From Chromatiales bacterium (GTDB taxonomy: Bacteria > Pseudomonadota > Gammaproteobacteria > SpSt-1174): 64,000 nucleotides of DNA. Shown here piece after piece: positions 16,187-45,646 of this stretch. Where the stretch lies: NCBI GenBank assembly GCA_014762505.1, contig JABURS010000043.1, forward strand, positions 62,001 through 126,000, in the 5' to 3' direction. Positions within the stretch are counted from its first letter, which is position 1. Each line of letters opens with the position of its first letter. The translations under genes were made by a program, and so were the position numbers. The notes below the pieces were generated by a model. It saw only the letters and a program-made list of their open reading frames with translations, did no database searches and was not told where the DNA came from.

Positions 16187-17335
16187 TCACAGTTTCTTCT
16201 GGTAGACGCGGTAGCGCTTGTAGATGTCGCTGCCAATCGCTTCGATGATATGGCGCATGCCGTCATTATCTTCGAGTATCCAGCCCATCTCAACCGTCTC
16301 CACGCCGCGTCGGGACATCTCTTTTCTCACGGCGTCGATGACGAGGAAGGCGAGTGTCGGGCCGAGGCGCGAGTACTGGTATTCCTTGCGCACGCCCATC
16401 AGCGCCACGCGCGTGCTGCGCGGACCCTTCACCTTCAGCCGCCAGAGCAGTTTCGCCCAGCCCAGCGGGAACAGGCGGCCGCGCAGGTCGGCGATGAGTT
16501 CGTTGATGTTGGGCAGGGCGGTGATGAAGGCCACGGGCCTCCCGTCGATCTCGGCGATCTGGATATAGTCGTCGGGCAGCAGCAGGGTGAGGCTCTTCGC
16601 AACCTCCTCGAACTCCGCGTGCGTGAAAGGGACGAAGCCCCAGTTGTCGGACCAGGCATCGTTGAAGATGTCGCGCATGGCCTCGAACTCGGCCGCCTTC
16701 GCCTTGCGGTTGAAGGGGCGTATCGTCACCTGGCGACGCGCACGGGTGGCGAGCTTCTCCATCACCTCGGGGGCGGTGAAGTCCGGCCGCACCGTATAGG
16801 TGAGCAGGTTCTTCACGCCGGCGAAGCCCTGTTCCTCCAGGCGTTGCTGATAGTAGAGCGGGGCGTGACCCATCATGATGAAGGGCGGTGCCTCGAAGTT
16901 GTCGACCAGCAGGCCGATCTCCTCGTTGATGGAGAGATTGTAGGGGCCGCGGATCCACGCGGCACCGCGCTCGCGCAGCCAGGCCTGCGCCGTATCCAGC
17001 AGGATCTGGAAGACGGGCGCGTCGTCCACGGCCTCGAGCATGCCGAAGTAGCCGACCGGGCCGCCGTCCAGCGGCGGCTGCAGCTGATCGAGCTGGGCGG
17101 TGATGCGACCGACCGGTTCGCCGTCGCGGTAGGCCACCCAGCGCGCGATCTCGCAGTGTGCGAACAGCGGTGCATTGTGGAACACGCGCTGTTTCTGTTC
17201 GAGCAGCAGCGGCGGCACCCAGGCCGGATCATCGGCGTAGATGCGCTCCGGCAGGTGCAGGAAGTCACGCACCGTCTGTCGGCTGTTTGCCTCGATGACG
17301 CGGATGTGGCCGCTGCCGGCCGCTGCGTTCGGCAT
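16187..17335 (-). CDS. bCerS: GNAT-type acyltransferase, candidate bacterial ceramide synthase
   Basis: A 382-residue cytoplasmic protein built like a double GNAT domain. The N-terminal part has VGRITAQLD, YFGMLEAVDD and RGPYNLSINEEIG (129-141); the C-terminal part has IAEIDGRPVAFITALP and ends with GWILEDNDGMRHIIEAIG and YKRYRVY. This layout resembles the bacterial ceramide synthase described in Caulobacter, a GNAT-type enzyme that N-acylates 3-ketosphinganine; the identification is by memory of the family and by its locus with spt, acpR, cerR and aasR. ATG 17335 has a good GAAAGGA site 5 bp upstream, so the longer frame to 17455 is rejected. A general GNAT function cannot be excluded. Confidence 0.65.
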   Translation of the reverse strand: MPNAAAGSGHIRVIEANSRQTVRDFLHLPERIYADDPAWVPPLLLEQKQRVFHNAPLFAHCEIARWVAYRDGEPVGRITAQLDQLQPPLDGGPVGYFGMLEAVDDAPVFQILLDTAQAWLRERGAAWIRGPYNLSINEEIGLLVDNFEAPPFIMMGHAPLYYQQRLEEQGFAGVKNLLTYTVRPDFTAPEVMEKLATRARRQVTIRPFNRKAKAAEFEAMRDIFNDAWSDNWGFVPFTHAEFEEVAKSLTLLLPDDYIQIAEIDGRPVAFITALPNINELIADLRGRLFPLGWAKLLWRLKVKGPRSTRVALMGVRKEYQYSRLGPTLAFLVIDAVRKEMSRRGVETVEMGWILEDNDGMRHIIEAIGSDIYKRYRVYQKKL

Positions 17336-17566: not shown

Positions 17567-18535
17567 GTGGCCAAGTTCATCCTCGGCAATACGTTTCGCA
17601 AGAAGGCGTTCGACAACCCCGTTGTGCGCCACACGCTGTGGTTCCTGGACCTGCTCCTCATCGGCCTGCTGTACGGCATCTTCAAGCTGCTGCCGGTGAC
17701 CTGGGCCTCGGCACTGGGTGCCCGGCTCGGTCGCCTGTTCAGCCGGCTGTTCGAGGGGCGAAACCGGCATATCCGTGCCAACCTGTCGCTGGCCTTCCCG
17801 GAGAAGTCGGCCGAGGAGATCGAGCGCCACGTGGGCGAGGTCTGGGCGAACGCCGGCGCGATACTGGCCGAGTACCCGCATATCCGCCGCATCATCGATC
17901 CACAGCGCGATTTCCTGGAGATCGTGATCCGCGAGCAGATCCCCGCCTATTCCGATCCGAACCAGCCGGCGGTGTTCGTGGTGGCGCACCTGGCCAACTG
18001 GGAGGTGGTCGGCGCTTCCATGGCGCGATTCGGCATCCGTTCCTATGCCATGTACGCGCCGCTGGCCAATCCCTGGTTCAACCGGCTGATGCTGCGCTAT
18101 CGCGGCATGCTGGGCTGCGAGCTCATCTCGCGCGACCAGGGGGTGCGCCCCTTCGTCAACGCGCTCAAGGGCGGCGGTTCGGCGGCCATGATCATCGACC
18201 GGCGGGTCGAGGGGGGTGAACCCATCCCGTTCTTCGGTGTCGATAAGCCATCGTCGACCCTGCCCGCACGCCTGGCGCTGCGTTTCAAGGCCCCGCTGGT
18301 GCCGGTGCAGGTCGAGCGGCTGTCCGGGCCGCGGTTCCGTGTCACCTTCCACGAGCCATTGCAGGTGAGCGACCCGCAGGCCGATGTCGATACGCAGGCC
18401 ATCGACCTCACGCGCCAGATCCACGAGCACTACGAGCGCTGGATCAGCGCGCGTCCGGGCGAGTGGCTTTGTACGAAAAAAATCTGGCCCGGTGATATAC
18501 TCCGGGCCAGAACCGATGCCTACAGAAAGGCGTAG
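17567..18535 (+). CDS. LpxL/HtrB-type lysophospholipid acyltransferase (copy 1)
   Basis: A 322-residue inner-membrane acyltransferase of the lipid A lauroyl/myristoyltransferase family. An N-terminal hydrophobic helix (LWFLDLLLIGLLYGIFKLL) is followed by RANLSLAFPEKS and the catalytic HX4E motif HLANWE (141-146). MIIDRRVEGGEPIPFFG is the family's acyl-donor element. The start is taken as GTG 17567 behind AAGGA at 17549-17553; the much longer open frame upstream is antisense to the GNAT gene. It heads a plus-strand set with the 2-hydroxylase-like gene. It may acylate a sphingolipid-type product rather than lipid A; not decidable here. Confidence 0.8.
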   Translation: MAKFILGNTFRKKAFDNPVVRHTLWFLDLLLIGLLYGIFKLLPVTWASALGARLGRLFSRLFEGRNRHIRANLSLAFPEKSAEEIERHVGEVWANAGAILAEYPHIRRIIDPQRDFLEIVIREQIPAYSDPNQPAVFVVAHLANWEVVGASMARFGIRSYAMYAPLANPWFNRLMLRYRGMLGCELISRDQGVRPFVNALKGGGSAAMIIDRRVEGGEPIPFFGVDKPSSTLPARLALRFKAPLVPVQVERLSGPRFRVTFHEPLQVSDPQADVDTQAIDLTRQIHEHYERWISARPGEWLCTKKIWPGDILRARTDAYRKA

Positions 18536-18564: not shown

Positions 18565-19212
18565 ATGTCGGAGCATCAATCAACCCGCGCGCATCGAGTG
18601 GACGAGTCGGTTCGTCTGTTCGAGAACCCGCTGCTGGAGAAACTCAGCCACGTGCACCCCATCGTGCCGCTGCTGGTGTGGGGCCCGCTGGCGTTGTGGC
18701 TGATGGTGCGCGCGGTGACGGTCCACGGCATCGGCCCCGCCGGGCTGGCACTGATCGCGGTGGCCGGCCTGCTGACCTGGACGCTCGCCGAATACCTGCT
18801 GCACCGCTTCCTGTTCCACTTCCCGGCGAAGAGCCGGATGGGCAAGCGGTTCATCTACCTGTTCCACGGCGTGCACCATGACACCCCGCAGGACAAGACC
18901 CGCCTGGTGATGCCGCCGGCCGGCGCGGCGCCGATCCTGGCCGTGCTGTGGCTGCTGTTCAGCCTGGTGCTGCCGCAGCCCTGGGCCGAGCCCTTCACGG
19001 CCTTCTTCATCGTCGGTTACCTGGTGTACGACTACATCCACTACGCGACGCACCACTTCCCCATGCGCCACCCCCTGCTGCGTTACCTCAAGCAGTACCA
19101 CATGCGGCATCACTTCGCCGGTGAGGAAGGGCGTTACGGGGTGAGTTCCCCGCTGTGGGACTGGGTCTTCGGCACCTACGTGCCGAAACCGGCGTCCGCC
19201 GGCAAGCGCTGA
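18565..19212 (+). CDS. Fatty-acid 2-hydroxylase-like membrane protein
   Basis: A 215-residue membrane di-iron enzyme of the sterol desaturase/fatty acid hydroxylase superfamily. Histidine clusters HRFLFH (80-85), HGVHH (101-105), HYATHH (159-164) and HMRHH (179-183) match the spacing in FA2H/Scs7, the enzymes that 2-hydroxylate the N-acyl chain of ceramide. TPQDKTRLVMPP directly after the second cluster, and the ending SSPLWDWVFGT, are also characteristic. There is no cytochrome b5 domain, unlike in yeast Scs7. It lies between two LpxL-type genes, 29 bp after the first. Ceramide acyl hydroxylation is a good inference from family and locus. Confidence 0.8.
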   Translation: MSEHQSTRAHRVDESVRLFENPLLEKLSHVHPIVPLLVWGPLALWLMVRAVTVHGIGPAGLALIAVAGLLTWTLAEYLLHRFLFHFPAKSRMGKRFIYLFHGVHHDTPQDKTRLVMPPAGAAPILAVLWLLFSLVLPQPWAEPFTAFFIVGYLVYDYIHYATHHFPMRHPLLRYLKQYHMRHHFAGEEGRYGVSSPLWDWVFGTYVPKPASAGKR

Positions 19213-19266: not shown

Positions 19267-20217
19267 ATGCCCAAGTACTATCTGCTGCCCAAACGGTTGA
19301 TCGACCGCGCCCCCTGGGTGCAGACGCCGGTGTGGATGCTCGAGGCATCGGTCTTCTACCTGTTCCTGGCCTTTGCGCGCCTGCTGCCGTTCCCGGTGGT
19401 CGCCGCCGTCTTCTCGTACGTGCTCGGCAGCCTCGGTTATCACAACGAGAAGAAGCGGCGCGTGGTGCGGCGTAACGTGGCGATGGTGCTGCCGCAGGCC
19501 ACGGAGGCGGAGCGGGAGCGGGTGGTGAAGCGGATCTTCCGTTCCACCGGCCTGGCCGCGGCCGAGCTCTTCCTGCTCGGGCGACTCTGGCGCCGTCGCC
19601 ACCGCTATCTGGAATTCTCGGTCCACCCGGAGGCGCAGGCCGCCTTCGAGCGCAAGGAGGCGATGGTCTTCGCCACGGCGCACACCGGCGCCTGGCAGCT
19701 GTGCAATCTCATCAGCCGCGAGTATGGCCTGGCCATCTCCACGATTTACGCCAGGGAGCCGAACCCCTGGCTGCACCGTTTCTTCCTCGGCCTGCGCAAG
19801 GCCTTCGGCGCGCGACTGGTGCCGAGCACCGGCGGGGCGCGCGAGCTGGTGCGCGAATTGGCCGCCGGCCACTCGGTGGGGGCGGCCTTCGACACCCGCC
19901 TGGACCAGGGCGAGATGGTGCCCTTCTTCGGCATCCCGGCCCCGACCAACACCATGCCGGCCCTGCTGTCCCTGCGTGGCTACAGGCTCATCCCGATCCG
20001 CGCCCTGCGCCTGCCGGGGCATCGTTATCGTGTCGAGGTGCTGGCACCGCTCACGCCGGCAGATCCGCAGGCCGGGCGACAGGCGCAGGTGTTCGATCTT
20101 ACTGCGCAGCTCAATCACGTCTTCGAGGGCTGGATCCTCGAGGACCCGGGCCAGTGGCTGTGCATGAAGCGGCGCTGGCCCAAGGACGCGTATCCGGCGG
20201 AGGCCGCGCGTGCCTGA
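19267..20217 (+). CDS. LpxL/HtrB-type acyltransferase (copy 2) with altered active-site motif
   Basis: A 316-residue protein of the lipid A acyltransferase family, with an N-terminal hydrophobic helix (VFYLFLAFARLLPF), RRNVAMVLPQATE and the donor-site element RLDQGEMVPFFGIPAP. The catalytic motif is HTGAWQ (139-144), with Gln in place of the acidic residue of HX4D/E. In this family the acidic residue supports the catalytic histidine, so the enzyme may be slower, changed in chemistry or inactive. The 3' end overlaps the third ELM1-family gene by 8 bp, which suggests coupled expression. Confidence 0.75.
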   Translation: MPKYYLLPKRLIDRAPWVQTPVWMLEASVFYLFLAFARLLPFPVVAAVFSYVLGSLGYHNEKKRRVVRRNVAMVLPQATEAERERVVKRIFRSTGLAAAELFLLGRLWRRRHRYLEFSVHPEAQAAFERKEAMVFATAHTGAWQLCNLISREYGLAISTIYAREPNPWLHRFFLGLRKAFGARLVPSTGGARELVRELAAGHSVGAAFDTRLDQGEMVPFFGIPAPTNTMPALLSLRGYRLIPIRALRLPGHRYRVEVLAPLTPADPQAGRQAQVFDLTAQLNHVFEGWILEDPGQWLCMKRRWPKDAYPAEAARA

Positions 20218-21349
20218 GGCCGGCAGCATGCCGCGGGTCTGGGTCGTGGATGCCTACCGCTCCGGGGAGCAGACCCAGCTGCGGGCCCTGGCGGAGGGGC
20301 TGGGCTGGCCCTTCGAGATCAAGACCCTGCGCTACCGCAAGTACGAGATGCGTACCAACCTGTTTCGTGGGCGCGACCTCCGTGGCATCGACCTCGACGC
20401 CTCCGATACCCTGCAGTCCCCCTGGCCGGACCTGGTGCTGTCCTCCGGCATGCGCAACGAGCCGGTGTGCCGCTGGATCCGCGACCAGTCCGGTGGCCGC
20501 ACGCGCATCGTCTTCATCGGCCGGCTGTGGGCCGATCCCGCGCATTTCGACCTGGTGGTCACCACGCCGCAGTACCGCGTGCCGGAACGGCCCAACGTAC
20601 TGCGCAACGACCTGCCCCTGCACCATGTGCGGCCCGACCGGCTGGCCGAGGCCGCCGCCCGATGGGCCCCCCGGCTGGCCCATCTGCCGCGTCCCTACAT
20701 CACCGTGAACGTGGGTGGCAACAGCGGCCCCTACGCCTTCGGCCGGCATGCCGCGAGGCGACTGGTGCGCGATGCGGTGGCCCTGGCGCGCGCGCGCGGC
20801 GGCTCGCTGCTGGTGAGTTCCAGCGCACGGACCCGCCCGGCCGTCATCGAGGCCTTTGCCGCGCAGGGCGACGTGCCCATGCAGCTCTACCGCTGGAAAC
20901 GCGGGGATGCCGAGAACCCCTATCTGGGCTTTCTCGCCCTGGCCGACGAGATCGTCGTCACAGCCGACAGCATCTCCATGCTCTCCGAGGCCTATGCCAC
21001 GGGCAAGCCGGTCCACATGTTCGACCTGGGGGCGGGGCGCCTGAGCATGCGTCGCGACCTGCACCTCGCGGCCGGCGAGCCGGCAAGGGCAGAGGCGGTC
21101 ATGAGGGAGGATGCGGACCGGCCGGACCTGGCCATCGGCGCCCTGGCCTACCGCGCGCTGATGCGCTGGGGCTGGAAACACCTCTCGCGGGACATCAGCC
21201 AGGTCCACCTGCGCCTGATCCGCTCGGGGAAGATGAACTGGCTGGGCGACCCGCTGCCCCCGATGCCGGCCGAGGGCCAGTCCAGCGACATGCAGCGCGC
21301 CGTGGCCCGGATACACGAGCTGCTGGGGCTGGACGCGCCGCCAGCCTGA
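20210..21349 (+). CDS. ELM1-family GT-B-like protein (copy 3)
   Basis: A 379-residue ELM1-family protein with WVVDAYRSGEQTQL at the N-terminus, LQSPWPDLVLSSGMR, RIVFIGRL, a TTPQYRVP loop, VGGNSGPYAFG and ALADEIVVTADSISMLSEA. It is closest to copy 2. GTG 20210 overlaps the acyltransferase gene by 8 bp; ATG 20228 is the alternative. That gives three copies of one family within 14 kb, each beside lipid- or sulfation-related genes. They may act on successive sugars or on different lipid acceptors. The reaction is not known. Confidence 0.75.
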   Translation: MPEAGSMPRVWVVDAYRSGEQTQLRALAEGLGWPFEIKTLRYRKYEMRTNLFRGRDLRGIDLDASDTLQSPWPDLVLSSGMRNEPVCRWIRDQSGGRTRIVFIGRLWADPAHFDLVVTTPQYRVPERPNVLRNDLPLHHVRPDRLAEAAARWAPRLAHLPRPYITVNVGGNSGPYAFGRHAARRLVRDAVALARARGGSLLVSSSARTRPAVIEAFAAQGDVPMQLYRWKRGDAENPYLGFLALADEIVVTADSISMLSEAYATGKPVHMFDLGAGRLSMRRDLHLAAGEPARAEAVMREDADRPDLAIGALAYRALMRWGWKHLSRDISQVHLRLIRSGKMNWLGDPLPPMPAEGQSSDMQRAVARIHELLGLDAPPA

Positions 21350-21531: not shown

Positions 21532-23259
<1,728 letters not shown>

Positions 23260-23343: not shown

Positions 23344-24411
23344 TCACCAGCGCAGGCGGTAGACCAGCAGGACGGCGGCCGCCAGGATGCAGGCCAGCGG
23401 GAAGGCAGCGGTGGCCGGCGCCGGCAGGTGGAAGATCTGGCCCAGTGCCAGCACCACCTGGGAGCCGAGGTAGAACAGCACGCCGATCAGCGCCCCGGTG
23501 GCGAGCTGGCGGCCCATGCCGCTGCGCCGGCTACCCGGCTTCACGCCCAGGCCCAGGGCGAGCAGTCCCATGGTCACGGTGGTCAGTGGTAGCAGCAGGC
23601 GGTTCCAGAAGGCCATGGCGGGGGCCTCCGAGGCCTGGCCGCTGCGGGTCAGGTAGCCGTGATACTCCCGCAGCACGCTGGTCGACATGCTGTCCAGGCT
23701 GAGCAGTAGCCGGTCCAGCTCGTCCTGCGACCAGAGCCCGTCCATCGTCAGCTCGGCCGGTTGCCGGATGGTCATCACTCCCCCCTCCCAGCGGCGCTCC
23801 AGGGTCTTGTGCAGGCGCCAGCGGCGCCCGCCCAGGGGTTCGGCGCGCACGGCGTGTATGGCGCGCAGCAGTTGCTTGTCTTCGGCGAATACGTAGATGT
23901 CGATGTCGCGGGGCGGCTTGCCGGCCTTCAGCCGGCCGACACGGAAGAAGGTGTTGTCCGAGCGCGACCAGAGGCTCTGGCCGGGCTCCAGGCTGTTGTT
24001 GCCGCGGGCGTCGCTGCGGATCTCCTCGCCCAGCTGGTGCAGTGGCGGGGTGACCCACTCCATGGCGCCCCAGAGCGTCAGCGCCAGGACCAGGAAGGGT
24101 ACTGCGAGCAGGCGCAGGAAGCGGGACTTGTCCAGGCCCGAACCACGCACCATGGTCATCTCGTTGGCCTGTTCCAGGCGGGCAAAGGCCGTGAGGGTGC
24201 CGATCAGCACGATCACCGGGGCGAGCATGATGAGCTGTTGCGGCAGGGTGAAGGCCACGTACAGCATGGCCTCGGTGGTGGTATAGCGACTGGTGACGCG
24301 GTCGAGTTCGTCGATCAGGCGCACCAGCATGAGCAGGATGGCGAGGATGGCGGTGGCCATCAGCCAGCCGGCGACCATGTGGCGTGTCAGGTAACCGCGG
24401 AGTATGCGCAT
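23344..24411 (-). CDS. lptG: LptG-like permease (YjgP/YjgQ family)
   Basis: A 355-residue inner-membrane protein of the LptF/LptG family, the permease subunits that pull LPS out of the inner membrane together with LptB and LptC. It has two N-terminal helices with RLIDELDRVTSRYTTTEAM, a periplasmic beta-jellyroll region (residues about 130-260, e.g. WSRSDNTFFRVGRL) and three C-terminal helices. It lies 4 bp after the LptF-like gene. It may be the housekeeping LPS pair or a dedicated copy for the lipid made by this locus; the position right beside the ceramide operon favours the latter, but a genome search is needed. Confidence 0.8.
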   Translation of the reverse strand: MRILRGYLTRHMVAGWLMATAILAILLMLVRLIDELDRVTSRYTTTEAMLYVAFTLPQQLIMLAPVIVLIGTLTAFARLEQANEMTMVRGSGLDKSRFLRLLAVPFLVLALTLWGAMEWVTPPLHQLGEEIRSDARGNNSLEPGQSLWSRSDNTFFRVGRLKAGKPPRDIDIYVFAEDKQLLRAIHAVRAEPLGGRRWRLHKTLERRWEGGVMTIRQPAELTMDGLWSQDELDRLLLSLDSMSTSVLREYHGYLTRSGQASEAPAMAFWNRLLLPLTTVTMGLLALGLGVKPGSRRSGMGRQLATGALIGVLFYLGSQVVLALGQIFHLPAPATAAFPLACILAAAVLLVYRLRW

Positions 24412-24415: not shown

Positions 24416-25516
24416 TCAGTGGGCCCCCCGCAGGCGCAGTGGCCGCAGACGTGCCCCCGGCAGCATCAGCCCCAGCAGCAGTGCCAGCGGCAGCAGATAG
24501 GCGAGCCACAGCCCGGGTACCGCCGGAATGCTGCCCTGCTCGACGAGGGTGCGTATCACCGTGATCTCGGTGAAGATCAACAGATAGGCGGCTACCGCCA
24601 GCAGGTTGCCCCGGGTCTGCGATGCCCGCGGCCGCGAACGGGCCAGCGGGAAGGCGAGCAGGGCCAGCAGGATACTGGCCAGCGGGGTGGACAGGCGCCA
24701 CTGGTATTCGGCGATATCCTTCGGATCGGTCGATCGCGCCAGCTCGAAGGTCGGGGTGGCCTTGTTGCGGTATTTCTCCCGTGCCTCCTCGGCGGCACCC
24801 CAGATAATGTTCATCTCCGCAAAGCGCATGCTCCAGTCGGTCTCGCCGGCCTGGTCGAGCAGGTAGCTGTAGCCGTCGCCGAAGGTCAGCAGCGCCTCCT
24901 GCCCGGGGTCCAGCCGGGGCAGGCGGGCCGTCTCGGCACGTATCAGCTCGATGTAGCTGGCGCCGTCCTCGTCCAGGTGGGTCTGGAAGAGGAAGACCTT
25001 GCGATGCAGCCCCTCTTCCTCGGCGCGTTCGTCGGCGATGAACATGTAGCCGTCGTCGTCCAGCGAGACGAAGCGCCCGGCCGAGAGGTTGCTGGCGTCG
25101 AGCTGGCTGATGGCGCGACCCTCCAGGCGATAGATGCTGTCGTAGGCCCAGGGGCGACCGAATACCGAAAGCAGGGCCACCACCGTGGCAATGAGCAGGG
25201 CGGCCATGCCGACGCTGCCCAGCAGGCGCAGCGGGGAGACGCCCACCGAGGCGAGCACGGCGATCTCGCCGTTCTGGTACAGCCGCCCCATGACGAACAG
25301 CACGGAGAAGAACATCGAGGTGGGCAGGATGATCTCCAGCGTGGTGATGCTGGACAGCCCCACCAGCTTGAGGGCGGTGAGCATGTCGATGAGCCCGTCG
25401 GCCGCCATGGCGAGGTTCTTGGAGAGGCTGAAGCCGGTGTAGACGAGCAGGAACAGGCCTACCCCCAGGATAACCGGGCGCAGGATCTCGCGGACGATGT
25501 AGCGGTCGATCAGCAT
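24416..25516 (-). CDS. lptF: LptF-like permease (YjgP/YjgQ family)
   Basis: A 366-residue partner of the LptG-like protein. N-terminal DRYIVREILRPVILG and the FFSVLFVMGRLYQNGEIAVLASVGVS segment (a cytoplasmic coupling helix that would contact an LptB-type ATPase) are typical of LptF. A periplasmic jellyroll region follows, with a helix-rich C-terminus containing PLARSRPR. It starts at ATG 25516, 22 bp after the metallophosphatase stop, so the whole minus-strand run from aasR to the ABC exporter is tightly packed. No LptB, LptC or LptA gene is seen in the window. Confidence 0.8.
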   Translation of the reverse strand: MLIDRYIVREILRPVILGVGLFLLVYTGFSLSKNLAMAADGLIDMLTALKLVGLSSITTLEIILPTSMFFSVLFVMGRLYQNGEIAVLASVGVSPLRLLGSVGMAALLIATVVALLSVFGRPWAYDSIYRLEGRAISQLDASNLSAGRFVSLDDDGYMFIADERAEEEGLHRKVFLFQTHLDEDGASYIELIRAETARLPRLDPGQEALLTFGDGYSYLLDQAGETDWSMRFAEMNIIWGAAEEAREKYRNKATPTFELARSTDPKDIAEYQWRLSTPLASILLALLAFPLARSRPRASQTRGNLLAVAAYLLIFTEITVIRTLVEQGSIPAVPGLWLAYLLPLALLLGLMLPGARLRPLRLRGAH

Positions 25517-25538
25517 GGTCGTGACCGGCCGATGGCCA

Positions 25539-26486
25539 TCACGCGGCGTGTGCGCGTTCGATCGACTGGGTGGTGCATGTGCTCGTCTCCACGCGGTGGT
25601 CCATGCCTACGCGCCGCGCGGTGAGTTCCAGTTCCCAGCCCCGCCCGGCACGGGTGATGCGGTAGAGATGATACGCCGCCAGTTCGCCGTGCACCGAGGA
25701 GGCGGAGGGGACGCCGATCACCGGGGCGTGACCGTCACGGGTCTCCAGCGCCTGGTGATGGCTCTCGTGGCCGTGGCCATGGATGACCAGCTCGATGCCC
25801 TCGGCGGCCAGCAGCGCCTGCAGCTCGGCGCTGTCGACCAGGCGCTTGCGGCGGCTGACCGTGCCCTCGATGAGCGGGTGATGGATGAGCAGGACGCGGA
25901 ACAGGCCCTCGGCACGCGTGCTGCGCAGCAGCTGCACGAGGCGCTCGCGCTGTGCCGCGCCGACCCGGCCCACGGCCAGTCCCGCGGGCGAGGCAACGGC
26001 GCTGGACAGCCCGATCAAGGCCAGTGGGCCGCGGCGACGCAGCACCGGGAAGGCATTGTCCACATCGTCCGCGGCTGCATCCGTTGCGTCGCCCTGCCAG
26101 TAGGGCGCCCAGTGGGCGGCGCCCTGCTCCCAGGCGCCGGGTACGGTGGCGTCGTGGTTGCCGGGCACGATCATCACGCGCGCGGGGTCGGCAAGGCGAT
26201 CCAGCCAGGCGCGCGCCTGCCGGTATTCGCTCTCCAGGCCGAGATTGGTGAGGTCGCCGGTCACGGTGATCCAGTCCGGGGCTTGGGCATGCAGGTCCGC
26301 CACCAGGCGGTCCAGGGTCTCGGGGAGGTAGCGCTTGTGGCGTTTCGTGTACCAGGAGAGCAGGCCCAGCAGGCGCTTGTTGAGTACGGCAGTGGGCGGC
26401 ACACCGGCGGGCAACGGCAGGTGCGGGTCCGACAGGTGTGCCAGTACCGTGCTGCTCGTGTCCTCTGGGTGGCGGCGGGGCTGCAT
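25539..26486 (-). CDS. Calcineurin-like metallophosphatase
   Basis: A 315-residue metallophosphoesterase with the full motif set: SDPH (D-x-H, residues 19-22), GDLTN, GNHD, a HHP pair, and GHGH. It is close to the Icc/CpdA-like branch. ATG 26486 is chosen over the longer frame (26654), which overlaps spt and is arginine- and proline-rich. It stands between spt and lptF in one strand run, 64 bp after spt. In this position a lipid phosphatase acting on a phosphorylated sphingolipid intermediate is possible, but cyclic nucleotide or other phosphoester substrates fit as well. Confidence 0.75.
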   Translation of the reverse strand: MQPRRHPEDTSSTVLAHLSDPHLPLPAGVPPTAVLNKRLLGLLSWYTKRHKRYLPETLDRLVADLHAQAPDWITVTGDLTNLGLESEYRQARAWLDRLADPARVMIVPGNHDATVPGAWEQGAAHWAPYWQGDATDAAADDVDNAFPVLRRRGPLALIGLSSAVASPAGLAVGRVGAAQRERLVQLLRSTRAEGLFRVLLIHHPLIEGTVSRRKRLVDSAELQALLAAEGIELVIHGHGHESHHQALETRDGHAPVIGVPSASSVHGELAAYHLYRITRAGRGWELELTARRVGMDHRVETSTCTTQSIERAHAA

Positions 26487-26550
26487 CAGCGTCGTCGTGG
26501 TTTGCCGGGTTGATATGGCGGGCCGGGCACGTGGCCCGGCCCGCGAGCGC

Positions 26551-27765
26551 CTAGTCCTGGCCGCCGCAGCGGGCCGAGGCAAAGGCCGTGCTGGCACGGG
26601 CGTCCCCGAAGGCGGCCACGATGGCATCGATCTGCTCGAAGCTGTGACCGGCACTCATGCTGCAGCGCAGCAGCGAGGCGCCGTCCGGCGAGGCGGGCGG
26701 GACCACCAGGTTGACGTAGACGCCGCTGGCCAGCAGCTCGTTCCAGATGCGGGCCGCCTCGTCGTGGGACTCCACGCGTACCGCGACCACCGGGCTGGGT
26801 GGCGAGGCGAGCTTGCAACCCAGGTCGGTGAGGCCGGTGTAAAGCCGGTCCACGTTGGCCCACAGCCGCTCCTTGATCTCGGGGCGGGTGCGGATGGCCT
26901 TCAGTGCCCAGTGTGCCGCGGCGATATTGGCCGGGCTCGAGGAGGCGGTGAAGATGTAGGGGCGGCTGCCGTAACGCAGCAGGTTGAGTTCTTCGTGGCG
27001 GCTGACGCAGAAACCGCCCAGCGAGCCCAGGCTCTTGCTGAAGGTGCCGGTGATGAAGTCCACCTCGTCGAGGATGCCGGTCTGTTCAGCCACGCCCAGG
27101 CCTCTCTCGCCGTACACGCCCAGGGAGTGGGCCTCGTCCACCATGAAGTAGGCGCCGAATTCCTTGGCCACGGCGCAGAGCTCCGCCAGCGGGGCGGTGT
27201 CGCCCAGCATGCTGTACAGGCCCTCGGTGATGACCAGTGAACCCTCGGCGTCCGCGCCTAGACGGCCGAGACGCTTGCGCAGGTCGTCCGGGTCGTTGTG
27301 GCGGAAGGTGAAGAAGTCCGCCCCGCTGATGCGGCAGCCGTCATAGATGCTGGCGTGGCTGTGGGCGTCGAGCACCACCTTGTCGCCCGCGCGCAGCAGG
27401 CCCATGATCAGGCCGAGGTTGGCCTGGTAGCCGGTGGAGAAGATCATCGCCGACGGCACGCCGTAGAAATCCGCAAATTCCTGTTCCAGCGCGACGTGGC
27501 TGGAGAAGCTGCCATTGGCCATGCGCGAGCCGGTGGTGCCGCTGCCCTGTTCGTGCAGGGCGTCGCAGGCCGCATCGAGAATGCCCTGCTCGAAGGTGAG
27601 GCCGAGGTAGTTGTTGGTGCCGGCAAGAATGGTGCGCCTGCCGGCGATCATGGCCTCGGTGGCGGACAGCAGCTTCTCCATGACGACCCGGCTGGGGTCG
27701 GCGTCGGCCGCTCCCAGGGCGTCACGAATGTGTGTGAGTTCGGCGAAGCGTTTGGAAATACTCAT
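26551..27765 (-). CDS. spt: Serine palmitoyltransferase-type alpha-oxoamine synthase
   Basis: A 404-residue PLP enzyme that would condense serine with an acyl thioester to form 3-ketosphinganine, the first committed step of sphingolipid synthesis. NNYLGL (51-56) is the family's substrate-entry motif, HSHASIYDG carries the ring-stacking histidine, VDEAHS (209-214) the PLP-pyridine aspartate and TFSKSLG (241-247) the PLP lysine Lys244. BioF and KBL share the fold; the neighbours (dedicated ACP, acyl-ACP synthetase, NAD-dependent reductase) point to Spt. The start overlaps the acpR stop (ATGA, 27762-27765). The absence of biotin or threonine genes nearby supports this call. Confidence 0.85.
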   Translation of the reverse strand: MSISKRFAELTHIRDALGAADADPSRVVMEKLLSATEAMIAGRRTILAGTNNYLGLTFEQGILDAACDALHEQGSGTTGSRMANGSFSSHVALEQEFADFYGVPSAMIFSTGYQANLGLIMGLLRAGDKVVLDAHSHASIYDGCRISGADFFTFRHNDPDDLRKRLGRLGADAEGSLVITEGLYSMLGDTAPLAELCAVAKEFGAYFMVDEAHSLGVYGERGLGVAEQTGILDEVDFITGTFSKSLGSLGGFCVSRHEELNLLRYGSRPYIFTASSSPANIAAAHWALKAIRTRPEIKERLWANVDRLYTGLTDLGCKLASPPSPVVAVRVESHDEAARIWNELLASGVYVNLVVPPASPDGASLLRCSMSAGHSFEQIDAIVAAFGDARASTAFASARCGGQD

Positions 27766-28028
27766 GACTTATCCTCGGCAAGCCGTTTGACCTGGTTGGC
27801 GAGATCCTGGACGGTGCTGACATCGGCCATCACGTTCAGGGGGACGATCACGTCGAAATGGTCCTCGATCTCCGTCAGCAGTTCCATGACGTTGATGGAG
27901 TCCAGACCCATGTCCGCCACCAGGTTGGTCTGCTCGTTCAGTTCGATGTTCTTGGTCGGGAAGCGTTCCAGCAGGTGAAACAGCGTCTGCAGGATCTCCT
28001 GGTACAGGTCTTTGGTCTCACTCGACAT
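27762..28028 (-). CDS. acpR: Acyl carrier protein for sphingolipid synthesis
   Basis: An 88-residue ACP with the phosphopantetheine serine in DMGLDSINVME (Ser44). It would carry the acyl chain between the acyl-ACP synthetase and serine palmitoyltransferase. ATG 28028 is the start: the longer frame up to 28169 lies inside cerR. It overlaps the end of cerR by 11 bp and its stop overlaps the spt start. This ACP is distinct from the housekeeping fatty-acid ACP in sequence around the serine (INVMEL rather than VELVM) and in context. Confidence 0.85.
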   Translation of the reverse strand: MSSETKDLYQEILQTLFHLLERFPTKNIELNEQTNLVADMGLDSINVMELLTEIEDHFDVIVPLNVMADVSTVQDLANQVKRLAEDKS

Positions 28029-28980
28029 TCGATATGCCCTCATCCGTCCGAGGTCGCGCTCGCTTGAGCAGTAAGGGTAGCCCGTCACGCAGGGTGATGG
28101 TGGGCTGCCAGCCGGTGGCGCGACTGAATTCGGTATTGTCGCAAACCCAGTCGGGATGGCGAAGTTCATTTACCTTGCCTGGCGTCAGCATCGGCAGATA
28201 GCCGAACAGACGCGCAGCGAGGAGGTTGGCGGCGGCAAGGCCGCGCAGCAGCGCGCCCGGGACCCTCAGCCGCAGGCCACGGCCGCGCCCGGTGACGTCC
28301 TCGACGATGGTGGCGATGTCTTCCCAGCTGTAACCCTCGCTACGACCGTCGTGTATTTCATACGTTCCACGCGCCTCACTGTCCAGCAGGCTGAGGACGG
28401 CGGTGGCCAGGTCGCTGACGTGCAGCAGGGAGGCGCGCGCGCCAGGCGAGCCGAGCAGGGGCGTCAGCCCCCAGGCCATGGTATTGAACAGCGGCAGCAG
28501 TTCGCGGTCCCCCGGCCCGTATACCGCCGGTGGCCGCAGCACCGCCCAGGACAGGGCCGTGCCTTCCGCCACCGAGGCCAGGCGCACCTCGCCCTCGCGC
28601 TTGCTCGCGGCATAGGGCGACAGGCCCGGTTCGCGGGCGGCAAGGGACGAGATCAGGATGAGGCGGGGAGGCCGGGGCTGGGCCAGGGCGATACGGGCAA
28701 TGCGCTCGGCGCCGTCGGCGTTGATCGGCCGGAAATCCTGTTCCGTGCGTCCGCGTACGCGGCCGGCTACATGCACCACGGCGTCCGCGCCGGCCAGCAA
28801 CTGCTGCAGGGAGGCTTCGTCGTGCAGTCCGCCGGTGACCGTTTCCAGTGCCTGGTGACGCAGCGGCAGGGTCTGCCGGTGCACCAGCGCCCTGACCCGC
28901 CACCCCGATTCCAGCAGTTGCGCGACCAGGGCCTGTCCGACGAAACCCGACGCCCCGGTAACGGCGACTGTTGCGGTCAT
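28018..28980 (-). CDS. cerR: NAD(P)-dependent epimerase/dehydratase-type reductase, CerR-like
   Basis: A 320-residue extended short-chain dehydrogenase. The cofactor loop is VTGASGFVG (7-15) and the catalytic pair is Y123-x3-K127 (YAASK), with a helpful SS pair upstream (LISSLA). In bacterial ceramide synthesis CerR is thought to reduce the 3-keto group after N-acylation. The gene sits between aasR and acpR with a 4 bp ATGA overlap with aasR (28977-28980), the order reported in Caulobacter as I recall it. A sugar-nucleotide epimerase role is less likely in this operon. Confidence 0.8.
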   Translation of the reverse strand: MTATVAVTGASGFVGQALVAQLLESGWRVRALVHRQTLPLRHQALETVTGGLHDEASLQQLLAGADAVVHVAGRVRGRTEQDFRPINADGAERIARIALAQPRPPRLILISSLAAREPGLSPYAASKREGEVRLASVAEGTALSWAVLRPPAVYGPGDRELLPLFNTMAWGLTPLLGSPGARASLLHVSDLATAVLSLLDSEARGTYEIHDGRSEGYSWEDIATIVEDVTGRGRGLRLRVPGALLRGLAAANLLAARLFGYLPMLTPGKVNELRHPDWVCDNTEFSRATGWQPTITLRDGLPLLLKRARPRTDEGISNVE

Positions 28981-30782
28981 GCCAGGCGTCGGATCGGGTC
29001 CCCGGCCGGCTGTGCGGAACGCGTGCGCGAGGCCTCGGAACCGACCCGCGAGGCGGTGCCCTGCTTGCGGGCGATGTAGTCCAGGCGGGCGCGCGAGCGC
29101 GAGAGCTTGCCGGACGAGGTGCGCGGCAGGGTGCGCGGCGGCACCAGCTCGACGATGCACTCGATGCCGAACTCGGCGCGAACCAGGCCCTTGATGTTCT
29201 TCACCAGTTGCTCGCGCTTCTCGTTGTCGCGCTCGCGGCACTGCACCACCAGGGCGGCCATCTCGTGCTGATCCTCCTCGGAGGTGACGGAGAAGGCGGC
29301 CACGTCGGTATAGCGCACGCCGGGCTGGGTCTTGGCCAGGTATTCGAGATCCTGCGGCCAGATGTTGCGGCCGTGCACGATGATCATGTCCTTCTTGCGG
29401 CCGGTGACGAACAGCCGGTCGCCGATCAGGTAGCCGATGTCGCCGGTGTTGAGCCAGCCGTCTTCGCTCAGTACTTCGCGGGTGGCGGCCTCGTCGTGGA
29501 AGTAGCCGCTCATGACGCTGGGGCCGCGCACGTGGATGGCTCCGGCATGGCGCTCCGGCAGCGGGTTGCCGTTGTCGTCGCGTATCGAGACCTCGAAGGT
29601 GGGCAGCATCACGCCGCAGTCCACGTAGCGGGCCACGCGGGTGCCGTCGCGTTTGGCCTGTTCCGGGTCCACCGGGCGGGCCACGCTTTCATGCTGCAGG
29701 TGCTCGGCGTCGATGTAGTCGATGCCCAGGTCGGCGCCCAGCTTGGCGAAGCTGATGCCCAGCGAGCATTCGGCCATGCCGTAGCAGGGCAGGTAGGCGC
29801 GCGGATTGAAGCCGGCAGGCGCCAGGGCCTCGGCGAAGCGCTGCAGCGGCTCCGGGCTGATCATCTCGGCGCCCACGCAGGCGGCGCGCAGGGCGCTGAG
29901 GTCCCACTGCTCGGCATCGCGCGCACGCACCCGCATGGCCGCCAGGTCGTAACCGAAGGGCGGGGCGGAGGTGATGGTGGCGCGGTTGGCCGACATCATG
30001 TCCAGCCACTTGCGCGGGCGCATGGCGAAGTCGTGGGTGCCGAGGAAGTCCACCGAGCGCTGGGTGACCATCGGCATGATGATGAAGGCCACCAGCCCCA
30101 TGTCGTGGAAGAAGGGCAGCCAGGAGCCGAAGCGATCCTGCTCGTTCAGCTCCAGTCCGTGCACGGCCATGTCGTGGATGTTGGCCAGCACTGTGGTGTG
30201 GTCGATGACCACGCCACGGGGGAAGCGGGTGCTGCCCGAGGTGTACTGGATGTAGGCGGTATCGCCCGGTTCGGCGCCCGGCAGTTCGCCGGTGGCCGGC
30301 TCGAGCTGGTCGAAGACCTCGGGGGTGCCCACGCAGCGCAGGTCGAGGCCTTCCACGGCCTCCTCGAGAAAGCTCATCCACTCGGACGGCGCCATCGCGG
30401 CGGCGGCGCCGCAGTTCTCGATCAGCTTGCGCAGCTGGGAGACGTAGGCGGCATGGCCGCCGATGTGCACGGTGGCGGGCAGGGGGACGGGCACCAGACC
30501 GGCGTATTGACAAGCCCAGAAGAAGCGGACAAAGTCGGGCGTGGTCTCGGCGACCAGGGCCACGCGCCCGCCTTTCTCGATGCCCAGCCCGACCAGTCGA
30601 CGCGCCAGCTCCAGGGCCTGTTCACGCAGCTCGGCATATTTCGCGGCGGCATACAGCTCGCCCCGCGCGTTGTAGAAGTTCACGCCAGTTTCACCGCCAG
30701 CGGCATAATCCAGGGCTTCGCACAGGGTCGAGAATGTAGAAGGTCGCAAAGCTAGATCATGCGAACTGCCTGTCGGCTGCAT
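28977..30782 (-). CDS. aasR: Acyl-ACP synthetase / fatty acyl-AMP ligase for sphingolipid synthesis
   Basis: A 601-residue ANL-family adenylating enzyme that would activate a fatty acid and load it on the ACP. YTSGSTRFPRG (180-190) is the ATP P-loop; the glycine-rich YGMAECSLGISF and the hinge GRKKDMIIVHGRN follow; SGKLSRSR near the end contains the C-terminal catalytic lysine. The insertion region typical of fatty acyl-AMP ligases fits the WLPFFHDMGL motif. It is the first gene of the aasR-cerR-acpR-spt operon. AAGGA lies 9 bp upstream of the ATG. Confidence 0.85.
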   Translation of the reverse strand: MQPTGSSHDLALRPSTFSTLCEALDYAAGGETGVNFYNARGELYAAAKYAELREQALELARRLVGLGIEKGGRVALVAETTPDFVRFFWACQYAGLVPVPLPATVHIGGHAAYVSQLRKLIENCGAAAAMAPSEWMSFLEEAVEGLDLRCVGTPEVFDQLEPATGELPGAEPGDTAYIQYTSGSTRFPRGVVIDHTTVLANIHDMAVHGLELNEQDRFGSWLPFFHDMGLVAFIIMPMVTQRSVDFLGTHDFAMRPRKWLDMMSANRATITSAPPFGYDLAAMRVRARDAEQWDLSALRAACVGAEMISPEPLQRFAEALAPAGFNPRAYLPCYGMAECSLGISFAKLGADLGIDYIDAEHLQHESVARPVDPEQAKRDGTRVARYVDCGVMLPTFEVSIRDDNGNPLPERHAGAIHVRGPSVMSGYFHDEAATREVLSEDGWLNTGDIGYLIGDRLFVTGRKKDMIIVHGRNIWPQDLEYLAKTQPGVRYTDVAAFSVTSEEDQHEMAALVVQCRERDNEKREQLVKNIKGLVRAEFGIECIVELVPPRTLPRTSSGKLSRSRARLDYIARKQGTASRVGSEASRTRSAQPAGDPIRRLA

Positions 30783-31235
30783 TACAGTGTTCCTTATTCC
30801 GTTTTTCGGAAATATCCGGTTGTTGCGTCAATCTGTTCGGGCAAATAGTAAAGTACGACCGCTGAATTCCCCAAGTGGTTCATTTCACAGCAGAAGTCAC
30901 CCGTTTCCCCAGGCCGCAGGGGCCTATCCTAGGCGCCACCCTGTCAGGCACATAATATAAGCGAGCGATGATACGACGCCGGGCAGGGTGATTTCAATCG
31001 GCACTCGACACGTCCCGCCCGGTTTCGGTACCATCGCCTACCCCCGGGCAAAGGCGTGGCGACCCAAAACTATCATCCCGGGCAGGGAATTGATGGAACG
31101 TGCTGCACAGAATGTGCATCCGCCACTGTGGCACCCTCTCCCCCCGCCCGTTAGTCTCCAGCCATTGGGCATGCATGTATCGTGCCCGAGCAGCGGGCAT
31201 GACAGATTTCACGGACTTGCAAGAGTAAGCACCAC
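30783..31235. other. Divergent intergenic region of the ceramide operon and PAPS genes
   Basis: About 450 bp between the divergently transcribed aasR and sat/cysC. It is relatively A+T rich near 30790-30860 and 30945-30985 (AATATAAGCG). A promoter candidate for aasR lies at 30845-30874. No open frame with a good start is seen, and no riboswitch or repeat was recognised. Confidence 0.6.
30845..30874 (-). promoter_or_regulatory. Candidate sigma70 promoter for the ceramide operon
   Basis: On the minus strand TTGGGG and TACTAT are separated by 18 bp, about 65 bp upstream of the aasR ATG. The -10 has five of six consensus bases if TACTAT is compared with TATAAT loosely; the -35 is moderate. Confidence 0.4.
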
Positions 31236-32951
31236 ATGACAACAGGCCTGATCGCCCCACATGGGGGCGAGCTCAAGGAGCTTTATGCCGATTCCGCGCG
31301 CGTCGAGGCGCTCAAGCGCGAGGTCTCGGACCTGCCTTCCTGGGATCTGACCCCGCGCCAGCTCTGTGACGCCGAGTTGCTGCTCAATGGTGCCTTCTCC
31401 CCGCTCACGGGATTCCTGGGCGAGGCCGATTACCGTGCCGTGCTCGCCGACATGCGCCTGGCAGACGGCACCCTCTGGCCGATGCCGATCACCCTGGACG
31501 TGAGCGAGGCCTTCGCCGGCAACGTGAAGGCGGGGGATCGTATTACCCTGCGCTGCCCCGAGGGCGTGCCGATCGCCATCCTCACCGTGACCGACATGTG
31601 GACGCCGGATCGTCGGGCCGAGGCCGTGGCCGTGTTCGGCAGCGACGATGACCTGCACCCGGGCGTGGATTTCCTGCTCAACCGTTCCAACCCCGTCTAT
31701 CTCGGCGGCAGCCTCGAGGGCATCGAGCCGCCCACCCACTACGATTTCCGTCACCTGCGCGACACCCCGCGCGAGCTGCGCGAGAAGTTCGTGAAGTGGG
31801 GCTGGCGTCGCGTGGTCGCCTTCCAGACCCGCAACCCGATGCATCGCGCCCACCAGGAGCTCACCTTCCGGGCCGCGCAGCAGGTCGAGGCCAATCTCCT
31901 GATCCAGCCCGTGGTCGGCATGACCAAGCCGGGCGACATCGATCACTACACGCGCGTGCGCTGCTACGAGAAGATCCTGGACTGCTACCCCGACCAGACC
32001 ACCGGCCTGTCGCTGCTGGGTCTGGCCATGCGCATGGGCGGTCCGCGCGAGGCGCTGTGGCACGCCATCATCCGCAAGAACTACGGCTGCACCCACTTCA
32101 TCGTCGGGCGCGACCACGCCGGTCCCGGCAAGAACCGGGCGGGCGAGGACTTCTACGGGCCCTACGACGCCCAGGAACTGGTGGCGACCTACCAGGACGA
32201 GCTCGGCATCCAGATGGTGCCCTTCCAGATGATGGTGTACGTGCAGGAGCGCGCCCAGTACGTGCCGATCGACGAGGTGGCCGAGGGCGAGACCGTGCTC
32301 AACATCTCCGGCACCGAATTCCGCCGCCGCCTGCGCGAAGGGCTCGACATCCCCGAGTGGTTCTCCTACCCGGGCGTGGTGCAGGAGCTGCGTCGCGGCT
32401 ACCCGCCGCGCGACCGCCAGGGGCTGGTGATCTTCTTCACCGGCCTGTCGGGCTCCGGCAAGTCGACCATCGCCAACGCCCTGCGCGTGAAGCTCATGGA
32501 GATGGGCGGTCGCCCGGTGACGCTGCTTGACGGCGACCTGGTGCGCAAGAACCTGTCCAGCGAGCTCGGCTTCTCGCGCGAGCACCGCGATCTCAACATC
32601 CAGCGCATCGGCTTCGTCGCCGCCGAGATCGCCAAGGCCGGCGGCATCGCCATCTGCGCGCCGATCGCGCCCTACGCGGCCACCCGCCGCCAGGTGCGCG
32701 AGATGGCCGAGGCCCACGGCGGCTTCATCGAGGTGCATGTCGCCACCCCGCTGGAGGTCTGCGAGCAGCGTGACCGCAAGGGGCTGTATGCCAAGGCGCG
32801 CGCCGGCCTCATCAAGGAATTCACCGGCATCAGCGATCCCTACGAGGAGCCGGAGAACCCCGAGATGCGCATCGACACCGCCGATGCCAGTGCCGACGAG
32901 GCCGCCCATCGCATCCTGCTCAAGATGGAGAGCATGGGCTTCCTCAAGTAA
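31236..32951 (+). CDS. sat-cysC: Bifunctional ATP sulfurylase / APS kinase (PAPS synthetase)
   Basis: A 571-residue fusion that makes adenylylsulfate from ATP and sulfate and then phosphorylates it to PAPS. The sulfurylase part (to about residue 390) carries QTRNPMHRAHQ and GRDHAGPG; the kinase part has the P-loop GLSGSGKST near 403 and LLDGD about 30 residues later. Assimilatory and oxidative sulfur genes are absent nearby, while two sulfotransferases are in the window, so supply of PAPS for sulfation is the likely role. In sulfur oxidisers single Sat proteins usually lack a fused kinase. It is divergent from the ceramide operon and followed by cysQ after 26 bp. Confidence 0.9.
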   Translation: MTTGLIAPHGGELKELYADSARVEALKREVSDLPSWDLTPRQLCDAELLLNGAFSPLTGFLGEADYRAVLADMRLADGTLWPMPITLDVSEAFAGNVKAGDRITLRCPEGVPIAILTVTDMWTPDRRAEAVAVFGSDDDLHPGVDFLLNRSNPVYLGGSLEGIEPPTHYDFRHLRDTPRELREKFVKWGWRRVVAFQTRNPMHRAHQELTFRAAQQVEANLLIQPVVGMTKPGDIDHYTRVRCYEKILDCYPDQTTGLSLLGLAMRMGGPREALWHAIIRKNYGCTHFIVGRDHAGPGKNRAGEDFYGPYDAQELVATYQDELGIQMVPFQMMVYVQERAQYVPIDEVAEGETVLNISGTEFRRRLREGLDIPEWFSYPGVVQELRRGYPPRDRQGLVIFFTGLSGSGKSTIANALRVKLMEMGGRPVTLLDGDLVRKNLSSELGFSREHRDLNIQRIGFVAAEIAKAGGIAICAPIAPYAATRRQVREMAEAHGGFIEVHVATPLEVCEQRDRKGLYAKARAGLIKEFTGISDPYEEPENPEMRIDTADASADEAAHRILLKMESMGFLK

Positions 32952-32977: not shown

Positions 32978-33799
32978 ATGCCCGTCGATACCCAGGCCCT
33001 GCTGCCCGCCGTCTGCGACCTAGCCCGCGAGGCCGGGGCCGCCATTCTGCGTGTCTACGAGAGCGACGACTTCGACGTCCAGACCAAGGGCGACGACTCC
33101 CCGCTGACCCGCGCCGACCTCGCCTCCAACCGCGTCATCGTCGACGGCCTGCGCCAGCTGGACGCCAGCATCCCGGTGCTGTCCGAGGAATCGCGGCAGG
33201 CGCCCTACAGCGAGCGCGCCGGCTGGTCCCGCTACTGGCTGGTGGATCCGATGGACGGGACCAAGGAGTTCGTCAAGCGCAGCGGCGAGTTCACCGTCAA
33301 CATCGCACTGGTCGACGAGGACGGCGTGCCGGTGCTGGGCGTGGTCTATGCCCCCGTGCTCGACCGCCTGTACTTTGCGGCACGCGGTCACGGTGCCTTC
33401 CGCCAGGACGGTCAGGACACCCCGCGGCCCATCCACGTGGCGGCCTACGACGGCAGCACCCCGAACATCGTCGCCTCCCGCTCGCATGGCGGCGAGACCC
33501 TCAAGCGTTTCCTCGACCAGGTGGGCGACTTCGAGGTCGTGAGCATGGGCAGCTCGCTCAAGCTCTGTCTCGTCGCCGAGGGTGCGGCGCATCTTTATCC
33601 CCGCCTCGGCCCCACCATGGAATGGGACACCGGCGCGGCGCACGCCATCGTCAACGAGGCCGGCGGGCAGGTCACCGATCTCTCCGGCAGGCCGCTGGCC
33701 TACAACAAGGAAGACCTGCTCAATCCCTACTTCATGGTCGAAGGCAATCCGCCCTATCCCTGGCGCGAGATGCTGCCCGCCGACATCGAGCCCGCATAG
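32978..33799 (+). CDS. cysQ: 3'(2'),5'-bisphosphate nucleotidase
   Basis: A 273-residue metal-dependent phosphatase of the inositol monophosphatase fold that dephosphorylates 3'-phosphoadenosine 5'-phosphate to AMP. DPMDGTKEF near residue 90 is the metal site, PVLSEES carries the activating glutamate, and WDTGAAHAIVNEAGG near 210 is the second motif. PAP is the by-product of PAPS-dependent sulfotransferases and inhibits them, so the gene completes a sulfation module with sat-cysC. Transcribed together with it (26 bp gap). Confidence 0.9.
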   Translation: MPVDTQALLPAVCDLAREAGAAILRVYESDDFDVQTKGDDSPLTRADLASNRVIVDGLRQLDASIPVLSEESRQAPYSERAGWSRYWLVDPMDGTKEFVKRSGEFTVNIALVDEDGVPVLGVVYAPVLDRLYFAARGHGAFRQDGQDTPRPIHVAAYDGSTPNIVASRSHGGETLKRFLDQVGDFEVVSMGSSLKLCLVAEGAAHLYPRLGPTMEWDTGAAHAIVNEAGGQVTDLSGRPLAYNKEDLLNPYFMVEGNPPYPWREMLPADIEPA

Positions 33800-34749: not shown

Positions 34750-35307
34750 TTACTGCATCATGCCCATGCCGGGCCCCATCATGCCGCGGAACTGTTGACG
34801 CTGCTCCTTGTCGAGCATCTGCATCATCTGCTGCCGCGTTTCCAGGCCTTCACGCATCATCTCCAGCCGGATATCCGACATTTTCTGATAGGCCTTGGAG
34901 ACGGTATCCGGATTCGGGTCTTCCTTGGCCCATTCCTTTTGCAGCTCCAGCATCGCTTCCTGCATGTCGGTCATGTGCTCCCAGCGCTCCTTTTGTGCCT
35001 TCTGCTGGAGATCGAACAGTTTCTGACGCTGGTCGTCGCTCAGGTTCATCATGGCCATGGGGTTGCCATAGCCCTGGCCGTAGCCAGGGCCTCCCATCAT
35101 CGGGCCGCCCATCATGCCCATTCCGTAGCCCATGCCCACACCCGGGCCCATCATGCCCATTTGCATGCCGTTCTGACAGGGCCCGTAGGCCTCACCCATC
35201 ATTCCGCCGTAGCCATGGGCGAAGGCGGTTGTGCCGCTGCTGAGGATGGCCGCGAAGACCGTTGTCAGCAGGACCGGTTTGAGCGATTTACTGATCGTGC
35301 ATTTCAT
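34750..35307 (-). CDS. Met-rich periplasmic protein of the Spy/CpxP type
   Basis: A 185-residue secreted protein: signal peptide ending in TTAFAHG, then a long Met- and Gly-rich stretch (GMQMGMMGPG, MGYGMGMMGG and similar) and helical segments with LSDDQRQKLFDL and LETRQQMMQML, resembling the LTxxQ repeats of Spy/CpxP. The Met stretches could bind Cu(I). It lies in the copper island between the SHOCT gene and a secreted unknown protein. Confidence 0.75.
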   Translation of the reverse strand: MKCTISKSLKPVLLTTVFAAILSSGTTAFAHGYGGMMGEAYGPCQNGMQMGMMGPGVGMGYGMGMMGGPMMGGPGYGQGYGNPMAMMNLSDDQRQKLFDLQQKAQKERWEHMTDMQEAMLELQKEWAKEDPNPDTVSKAYQKMSDIRLEMMREGLETRQQMMQMLDKEQRQQFRGMMGPGMGMMQ

Positions 35308-37894: not shown

Positions 37895-37895
37895 C

Positions 37896-45645: not shown

Positions 45646-45646
45646 G

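Follow-up and report, generated by a model that had tools for sequence, protein, structure and literature searches.

A sphingolipid gene cluster in a gammaproteobacterium lacking lpxA, lpxB and lpxD: a probable replacement for lipopolysaccharide

The sphingolipid core

The 64,000-nucleotide stretch of DNA analysed here (hereafter the window; positions 62,001 to 126,000 of contig JABURS010000043.1, assembly GCA_014762505.1, from a Chromatiales bacterium) carries on its minus strand, from 30782 down to 26551, the four genes aasR-cerR-acpR-spt of bacterial sphingolipid synthesis, in a genome that has lost much of the pathway to the lipid A of lipopolysaccharide (LPS). Sphingolipids have probably taken the place of LPS in this lineage. 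The leading gene, aasR (28977..30782, 601 aa), encodes a fatty acyl-AMP ligase/acyl-carrier-protein synthetase (PRK09192, 743 bits against a cut-off of 600), with the motifs YTSGST, GRNIWP and GK and a fatty acyl-adenylate ligase, 3pbk, as its closest solved structure. It is followed by cerR (28018..28980, 320 aa), a reductase of the extended short-chain dehydrogenase/reductase type (Epimerase, PF01370) with the Rossmann motif GASGFVG and YxxxK as YAASK, without a hydrophobic segment and 71-81% identical to its counterparts in relatives; by acpR (27762..28028, 88 aa), a dedicated acyl carrier protein (PP-binding, PF00550) with a GLDS phosphopantetheine site; and by spt (26551..27765, 404 aa), the gene for serine palmitoyltransferase. 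All four begin with ATG and overlap in turn by 4, 11 and 4 bp, so that AasR and a dedicated AcpR are co-encoded with Spt. Mechanical open frames also exist on the opposite strand, and a gene call based on codon usage selects the four minus-strand genes. A promoter-like site upstream of aasR (30968..30997, minus strand; TTGAAA-18-TATCAT) is a consensus match only, one of 2 such sites found against 0.7 expected, and no terminator-like site was seen in the scanned interval 25400-31300. The operon is kept in the closest relatives, where Spt is 81-91% identical, and its arrangement is therefore not due to chance.

The initial annotation had placed and named these genes exactly as the open reading frames and family matches do, and its statement that Caulobacter has the same order proved correct (CC_1165-1164-1163-1162; PMC9386255). 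Its description of the core as complete is slightly inexact: N-acylation needs a fifth gene, cerS, a homologue of which lies beyond the coordinates it gave, at 16187..17335 on the minus strand. This homologue, of the bCerS/YghO/CC_1154 N-acyltransferase type, is 47-50% identical over 97% of its length to yghO genes that adjoin spt in E. coli and Pseudomonas, yghO being the orthologue of aca/CC_1154 (PMC9386255).

Spt scores 572 bits against the NCBIfam equivalog NF047599 (cut-off 500) and 319 bits against the bioF model (cut-off 426), and falls far under the cut-offs for kbl, ALA synthase and CAI-1 synthase. Of the solved structures, the serine palmitoyltransferases 2x8u and 2jg2 come closest to it; its pyridoxal phosphate site aligns with theirs, the lysine and its partner residues being kept in SHASIYDG, DEAHS, FSKS and LLRCS. 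Grouping with BioF or KBL, which the initial annotation had named as the outcome that would count against it, was not found: in a maximum-likelihood tree of 50 rows, including E. coli BioF, Kbl and the genome's own second relative, the window's Spt falls inside a 35-row proteobacterial Spt clade (support 100/100), apart from all three, with a same-genus metagenome-assembled genome (MAG), G001 (91%), Thiohalobacter thiocyanaticus (81%) and a gammaproteobacterial MAG as its sisters. The four-gene set is, by its sequence, a genuine bacterial sphingolipid operon, with 3-oxo-sphinganine and ceramide as its predicted products. As alpha-oxoamine synthases differ in the substrates they use and sequence gives no certain substrate choice, the operon might instead make another alpha-oxoamine, for example an amino ketone lipid derived from alanine or glycine; the equivalog scores, the residues and the position in the tree all argue otherwise, as do the cerS, cerR and lipid-kinase homologues nearby, and we regard such a product as highly improbable.

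It is worth noting that such operons are a common and well-known kind. The suggestion that sphingolipids are rarely reported in Gammaproteobacteria, and the operon thus notable, found no support, and novelty of the operon in this class was rejected as a reading: the E. coli version is present, at no less than 80% query coverage, in 4039 of 5426 complete E. coli genomes (74%); the operon sits on plasmids of Klebsiella, Pseudomonas, Roseomonas and Diaphorobacter; and Spt exceeds its cut-off in 20 of 369 sampled genomes of the class, as sampled here with beta-type families included. The order aasR-cerR-acpR-spt is found in most other genomes of the sample that have spt, as a rule accompanied by LptFG and a homologue of cerS. 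Spt, AcpR and AasR of Caulobacter and E. coli B, both of which have this gene order, have been characterised, the Spt of E. coli B by assay (PMC9386255), and contiguous clusters have been published for Azotobacter and Pseudomonas luteola (PMC11324152). The unusual feature is the loss of lipid A genes, which is invisible from the four genes.

Loss of lipid A genes

The genome (2.77 Mb in 43 contigs, completeness 100%) was examined for lipid A genes through targeted searches, among them one tblastn in which nine E. coli K-12 proteins were joined as a single query. LpxA, LpxB, LpxD and WaaA had no match in the window's genome, in which the same search found RnhB, FabZ, LpxK, KdsB and CoaD, and all nine proteins were found in the control genomes (Thiohalobacter and the relatives G002 and G046). 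LpxB was likewise without a family-model match in the genome, under conditions in which control models matched. At the lpxA/B/D site, skp-fabZ-rnhB-dnaE is retained and lpxD, lpxA and lpxB have been excised with the flanks in place; at the lptFG site, valS-holC-pepA-RDD stands on one contig, against valS-holC-pepA-lptF-lptG-RDD in Thiohalobacter; and the msbA slot before lpxK holds a 384-aa protein. No remnants of lpx genes, msbA or lptFG were seen at these deletion sites. As LpxA, LpxD and LpxB are absent, lipid A cannot be made by the known pathway.

Were the missing genes simply lying in unassembled gaps, the losses would be an artefact, a prospect that the 43 contigs encourage, as does the fact that the loss of waaA, seen by tblastn, has no spanning contig. 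The synteny check did, however, cover the lpxD/A/B, msbA and lptFG sites, each on contiguous sequence with no N; completeness stands at 100%; and the separate assembly of G001, which keeps lpxA, is missing lpxD, lpxB and msbA from the corresponding positions. An artefact of this kind is accordingly very unlikely.

Several LPS-related genes persist in the window's genome: lpxC, with intact catalytic motifs, lpxK, kdsB and lptD. The lpxC gene (L011:1492-2412, C41 of this genome) endures despite the loss of lpxA, lpxB and lpxD. Where msbA formerly stood, next to lpxK-ycaR-kdsB, the two genomes of the genus each encode a protein of 383-384 aa resembling the N-domain of 3-deoxy-D-manno-octulosonic acid (Kdo) transferase (PF04413, a weak match at 25 bits; L174:8441-9595, C18 of the window's own genome, and L181:5297-6448); its AlphaFold model, at a predicted local distance difference test (pLDDT) score of 43, was too poor to use. 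Intact LPS, as suggested by the presence of lpxC and lptD, was considered and overturned by the family search for LpxB, the tblastn search and synteny. The sphingolipid could still be an ordinary addition to the lipids of a cell that also bears LPS, which is the situation in E. coli, Caulobacter and Thiohalobacter, with lipid A enzymes too diverged to detect; the retained LpxC, LpxK, KdsB and LptD and the divergent Kdo-transferase-like protein adjoining lpxK would suit such a cell. This is nonetheless unlikely, as lpxA, lpxB and lpxD are missing from a conserved site with intact flanks and are well conserved genes (~50% between E. coli and Thiohalobacter), detected in every LPS-bearing control.

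The remaining transport genes and the outer membrane

Downstream of spt and on the same strand, separated by gaps of 64, 22, 4 and 93 bp, lie genes for a calcineurin-like metallophosphoesterase (25539..26486; PF00149, CC_1158-like, 44% to a Roseomonas cluster gene), LptF2 (24416..25516; TIGR04407), its partner LptG2 (23344..24411; TIGR04408) and an ATP-binding cassette (ABC) exporter, probably a sphingolipid flippase (21532..23250; PF00664 and PF00005, 46% to a P. veronii gene beside spt). This LptF/LptG pair is the only one in the genome (two PF03739 genes). Both members group with the sphingolipid-cluster proteins of E. coli, Klebsiella and Pseudomonas, apart from the canonical ones (LptF2 in a clade of 20 rows, LptG2 in one of 19, support 100/99 in each case). 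No MsbA equivalog scores above cut-off in the genome; the best match to the MsbA model, and the only full-length one, is the cluster ABC exporter itself (254 bits against a cut-off of 602). The envelope exporters that remain are the cluster ABC protein and LptF2G2; LptD is also still present.

With the lipid A pathway, MsbA and canonical LptFG gone, sphingolipids most likely make up the outer leaflet. In the scheme we propose, which predicts the activities of the enzymes, the head groups, the route of transport and what the outer leaflet contains, AasR would charge AcpR with a fatty acid, Spt would join acyl-AcpR with serine by condensation, CerR would reduce the keto group to give a sphingoid base, and the nearby CerS homologue would N-acylate this to ceramide. 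Other genes of the cluster would probably decorate the ceramide with phosphate, sugars, extra acyl chains and perhaps sulfate, after which the cluster ABC exporter would flip the decorated lipid and LptF2G2, together with the retained LptD, would carry it to the outer membrane. A takeover of the outer leaflet by sphingolipids, the simplest reading, fits two precedents: Caulobacter without lipid A needs sphingolipid, and Sphingomonas naturally lacks lipid A (PMC10964400; PMC10331486). Since the sole LptF/LptG is the sphingolipid-linked pair, the proposal that LptF2G2 carries sphingolipids becomes directly testable.

Loss of LPS need not imply a sphingolipid leaflet: there are other bacteria that have neither lipid A nor sphingolipids, and the sulfotransferases and glycosyltransferases of the cluster could serve a polysaccharide, leaving an outer leaflet mostly of phospholipid or another glycolipid in which sphingolipids are minor. 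Against this stands the fact that the one remaining LptF/LptG pair and the one remaining MsbA-like exporter both lie within the sphingolipid cluster, and we give the idea very little credence. Replacement of LPS by sphingolipids nevertheless has to be weighed against several observations. A clean loss of LPS would be expected to remove lpxC, lpxK, kdsB and lptD in time, all of which are kept; the genome is fragmented, with the loss of waaA outside the synteny check; two LpxL-like genes remain, both inside the cluster; and the wider head-group assignments are drawn from identities of 25-50%.

A bolder version, which we offer tentatively and hold to be somewhat doubtful, is that LPS was naturally replaced by a sulfated, phosphorylated, multi-acylated glycosphingolipid, that one cluster took over the roles of MsbA and LptFG, that the left-over LpxK, KdsB and diverged Kdo-transferase-like protein were recruited for decoration, and that Thiohalobacter and the same-genus MAG preserve intermediate steps. 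Among the related genomes, G002 has full LPS genes and no operon, Thiohalobacter has both, G001 has a partial LPS set and the window's genome almost none. No earlier report of sphingolipids replacing LPS in Gammaproteobacteria was found in a literature search that most subscription papers fell outside; what is new here is a sphingolipid cluster in a gammaproteobacterium without lipid A synthesis, alongside one relative that still bears LPS and another that is intermediate.

The wider cluster and candidate head groups

Beyond the exporter, the cluster continues with genes that mostly have equivalents in the sphingolipid clusters of other proteobacteria, Roseomonas and Diaphorobacter among them. 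On the plus strand lie an ELM1/GtrOC1-type glycosyltransferase (20228..21349; PF06258, 79% to a relative), a fatty acid hydroxylase (18598..19212; PF04116, 34% to a Roseomonas cluster gene) and two LpxL-like acyltransferases, A (17567..18535) and B (19267..20217), both PF03279 and far under the lipid A equivalog cut-offs; present in a genome without lipid A synthesis, these two may O-acylate a sphingolipid. Minus-strand open reading frames at 17486-21316 were discarded as cluster genes, the gene call and family matches marking them as antisense artefacts of the real plus-strand genes. Beside cerS on the minus strand is a CofC/MobA-like nucleotidyltransferase (15319..16179; PF12804, CC_1153-like, 32-46% to cluster genes elsewhere). 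Further ELM1-type glycosyltransferases (PF06258) are encoded at 13114..14211 (minus) and 7717..8808 (plus). The plus-strand gene at 12103..13053, with an invariant DPD in alignment, probably encodes a GT8-like glycosyltransferase, an assignment that stays tentative because the predicted structure is of low confidence (pLDDT 60, template-modelling score ~0.28 to GT8 folds); its paralogue (65%) at 6549..7457 on the minus strand is 48% identical to a Roseomonas gene beside spt. Two further candidates on the plus strand are a Tam41-like cytidylyltransferase (11052..12011; CC_1161-like, 33-50% to cluster genes, PF09139 at 20.6 bits and so under the cut-off of 24) and a lipid kinase, a candidate ceramide kinase of the CpgB/CC_1160 type (9838..10839; PF00781, 25-38% to cluster lipid kinases). 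A CDP-alcohol phosphatidyltransferase of the CC_1159 type, needed for the CPG2 lipid of Caulobacter (PMC11324152), gave no tblastn match in the window or in 34 kb of flanking sequence when cluster proteins of Roseomonas and Diaphorobacter served as queries.

Two plus-strand sulfotransferases, A (5390..6406) and B (14383..15312), both PF00685 with motifs of the site for 3'-phosphoadenosine 5'-phosphosulfate (PAPS), also belong to the cluster. Divergent from aasR, on the plus strand, stand sat-cysC for PAPS synthesis (31236..32951; PRK05537, 957 bits) and cysQ for the phosphatase acting on 3'-phosphoadenosine 5'-phosphate (32978..33799; TIGR01331), an arrangement shared with the same-genus sister MAG. 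Sulfotransferases beside spt were found only in the window's genome (2), the sister MAG (1), Thiohalobacter (4) and the more distant G342 (1). With sulfotransferases and PAPS-making genes so close together, a sulfated sphingolipid from this cluster is plausible from its gene content. On sulfated bacterial sphingolipids, a search of the literature whose coverage left out most subscription papers returned nothing.

Comparison with known systems

One of the closest published parallels is the CC_1168-CC_1152 phosphosphingolipid (CPG/CPG2) cluster of Caulobacter crescentus (PMC11324152), which shares the four-gene order, cerS, lipid kinase, phosphoesterase, CofC-like and LptF2/LptG2 homologues and, through the Tam41-like candidate under its Pfam cut-off, possibly CC_1161. 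The window differs in its sulfotransferases, LpxL-like acyltransferases, three ELM1 and two tentatively GT8-like glycosyltransferases, and in the CC_1159-type gene not found in the interval searched; moreover, wild-type Caulobacter keeps LPS. E. coli B has the same order with yghO and LptFG2 (PMC9386255), and hence the same five ceramide genes and a separate sphingolipid-type LptFG, but there the canonical LPS pathway and LptFG are present and Spt identity is 52%. The glycosphingolipid envelope of Sphingomonas resembles the present case in combining sphingolipid genes with a lack of lipid A synthesis, which for the window's organism is predicted from its gene losses; Sphingomonas, however, belongs to the Alphaproteobacteria and has scattered genes, whereas here a gammaproteobacterium has one cluster, a relative with LPS and an intermediate.

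Nitrosomonadaceae are possibly a parallel case of LPS loss accompanied by a sphingolipid operon. Of the lipid A genes, lpxK alone survives in Nitrosomonas europaea and lpxA alone in Nitrosospira multiformis, and the 2010 paper that put the loss of lipid A down to genome reduction leaves sphingolipids unmentioned (PMC3087551). Genomes of Nitrosomonas and Nitrosovibrio carry the spt operon. The family shares with the window's genome the operon and a near-total loss of lipid A genes, which in N. europaea and N. multiformis has spared a single gene each; its Spt forms a separate branch in the tree. Such a pattern may also lie behind the absence of lipid A genes that has long been noted in Nitrosomonas, and the keeping of LpxK in both the window's genome and Nitrosomonas europaea hints at reuse.

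Other features of the window

Two further groups of genes lie on the far side of the operon. A metal-resistance cluster at 34750-41548 comprises an LTXXQ-type heavy-metal-resistance protein, a P-type ATPase, CopB and a multicopper oxidase, and from 45088-46864 onward there are phage tail-sheath-like and Pvc16-like genes, perhaps of a contractile injection system or a prophage remnant.

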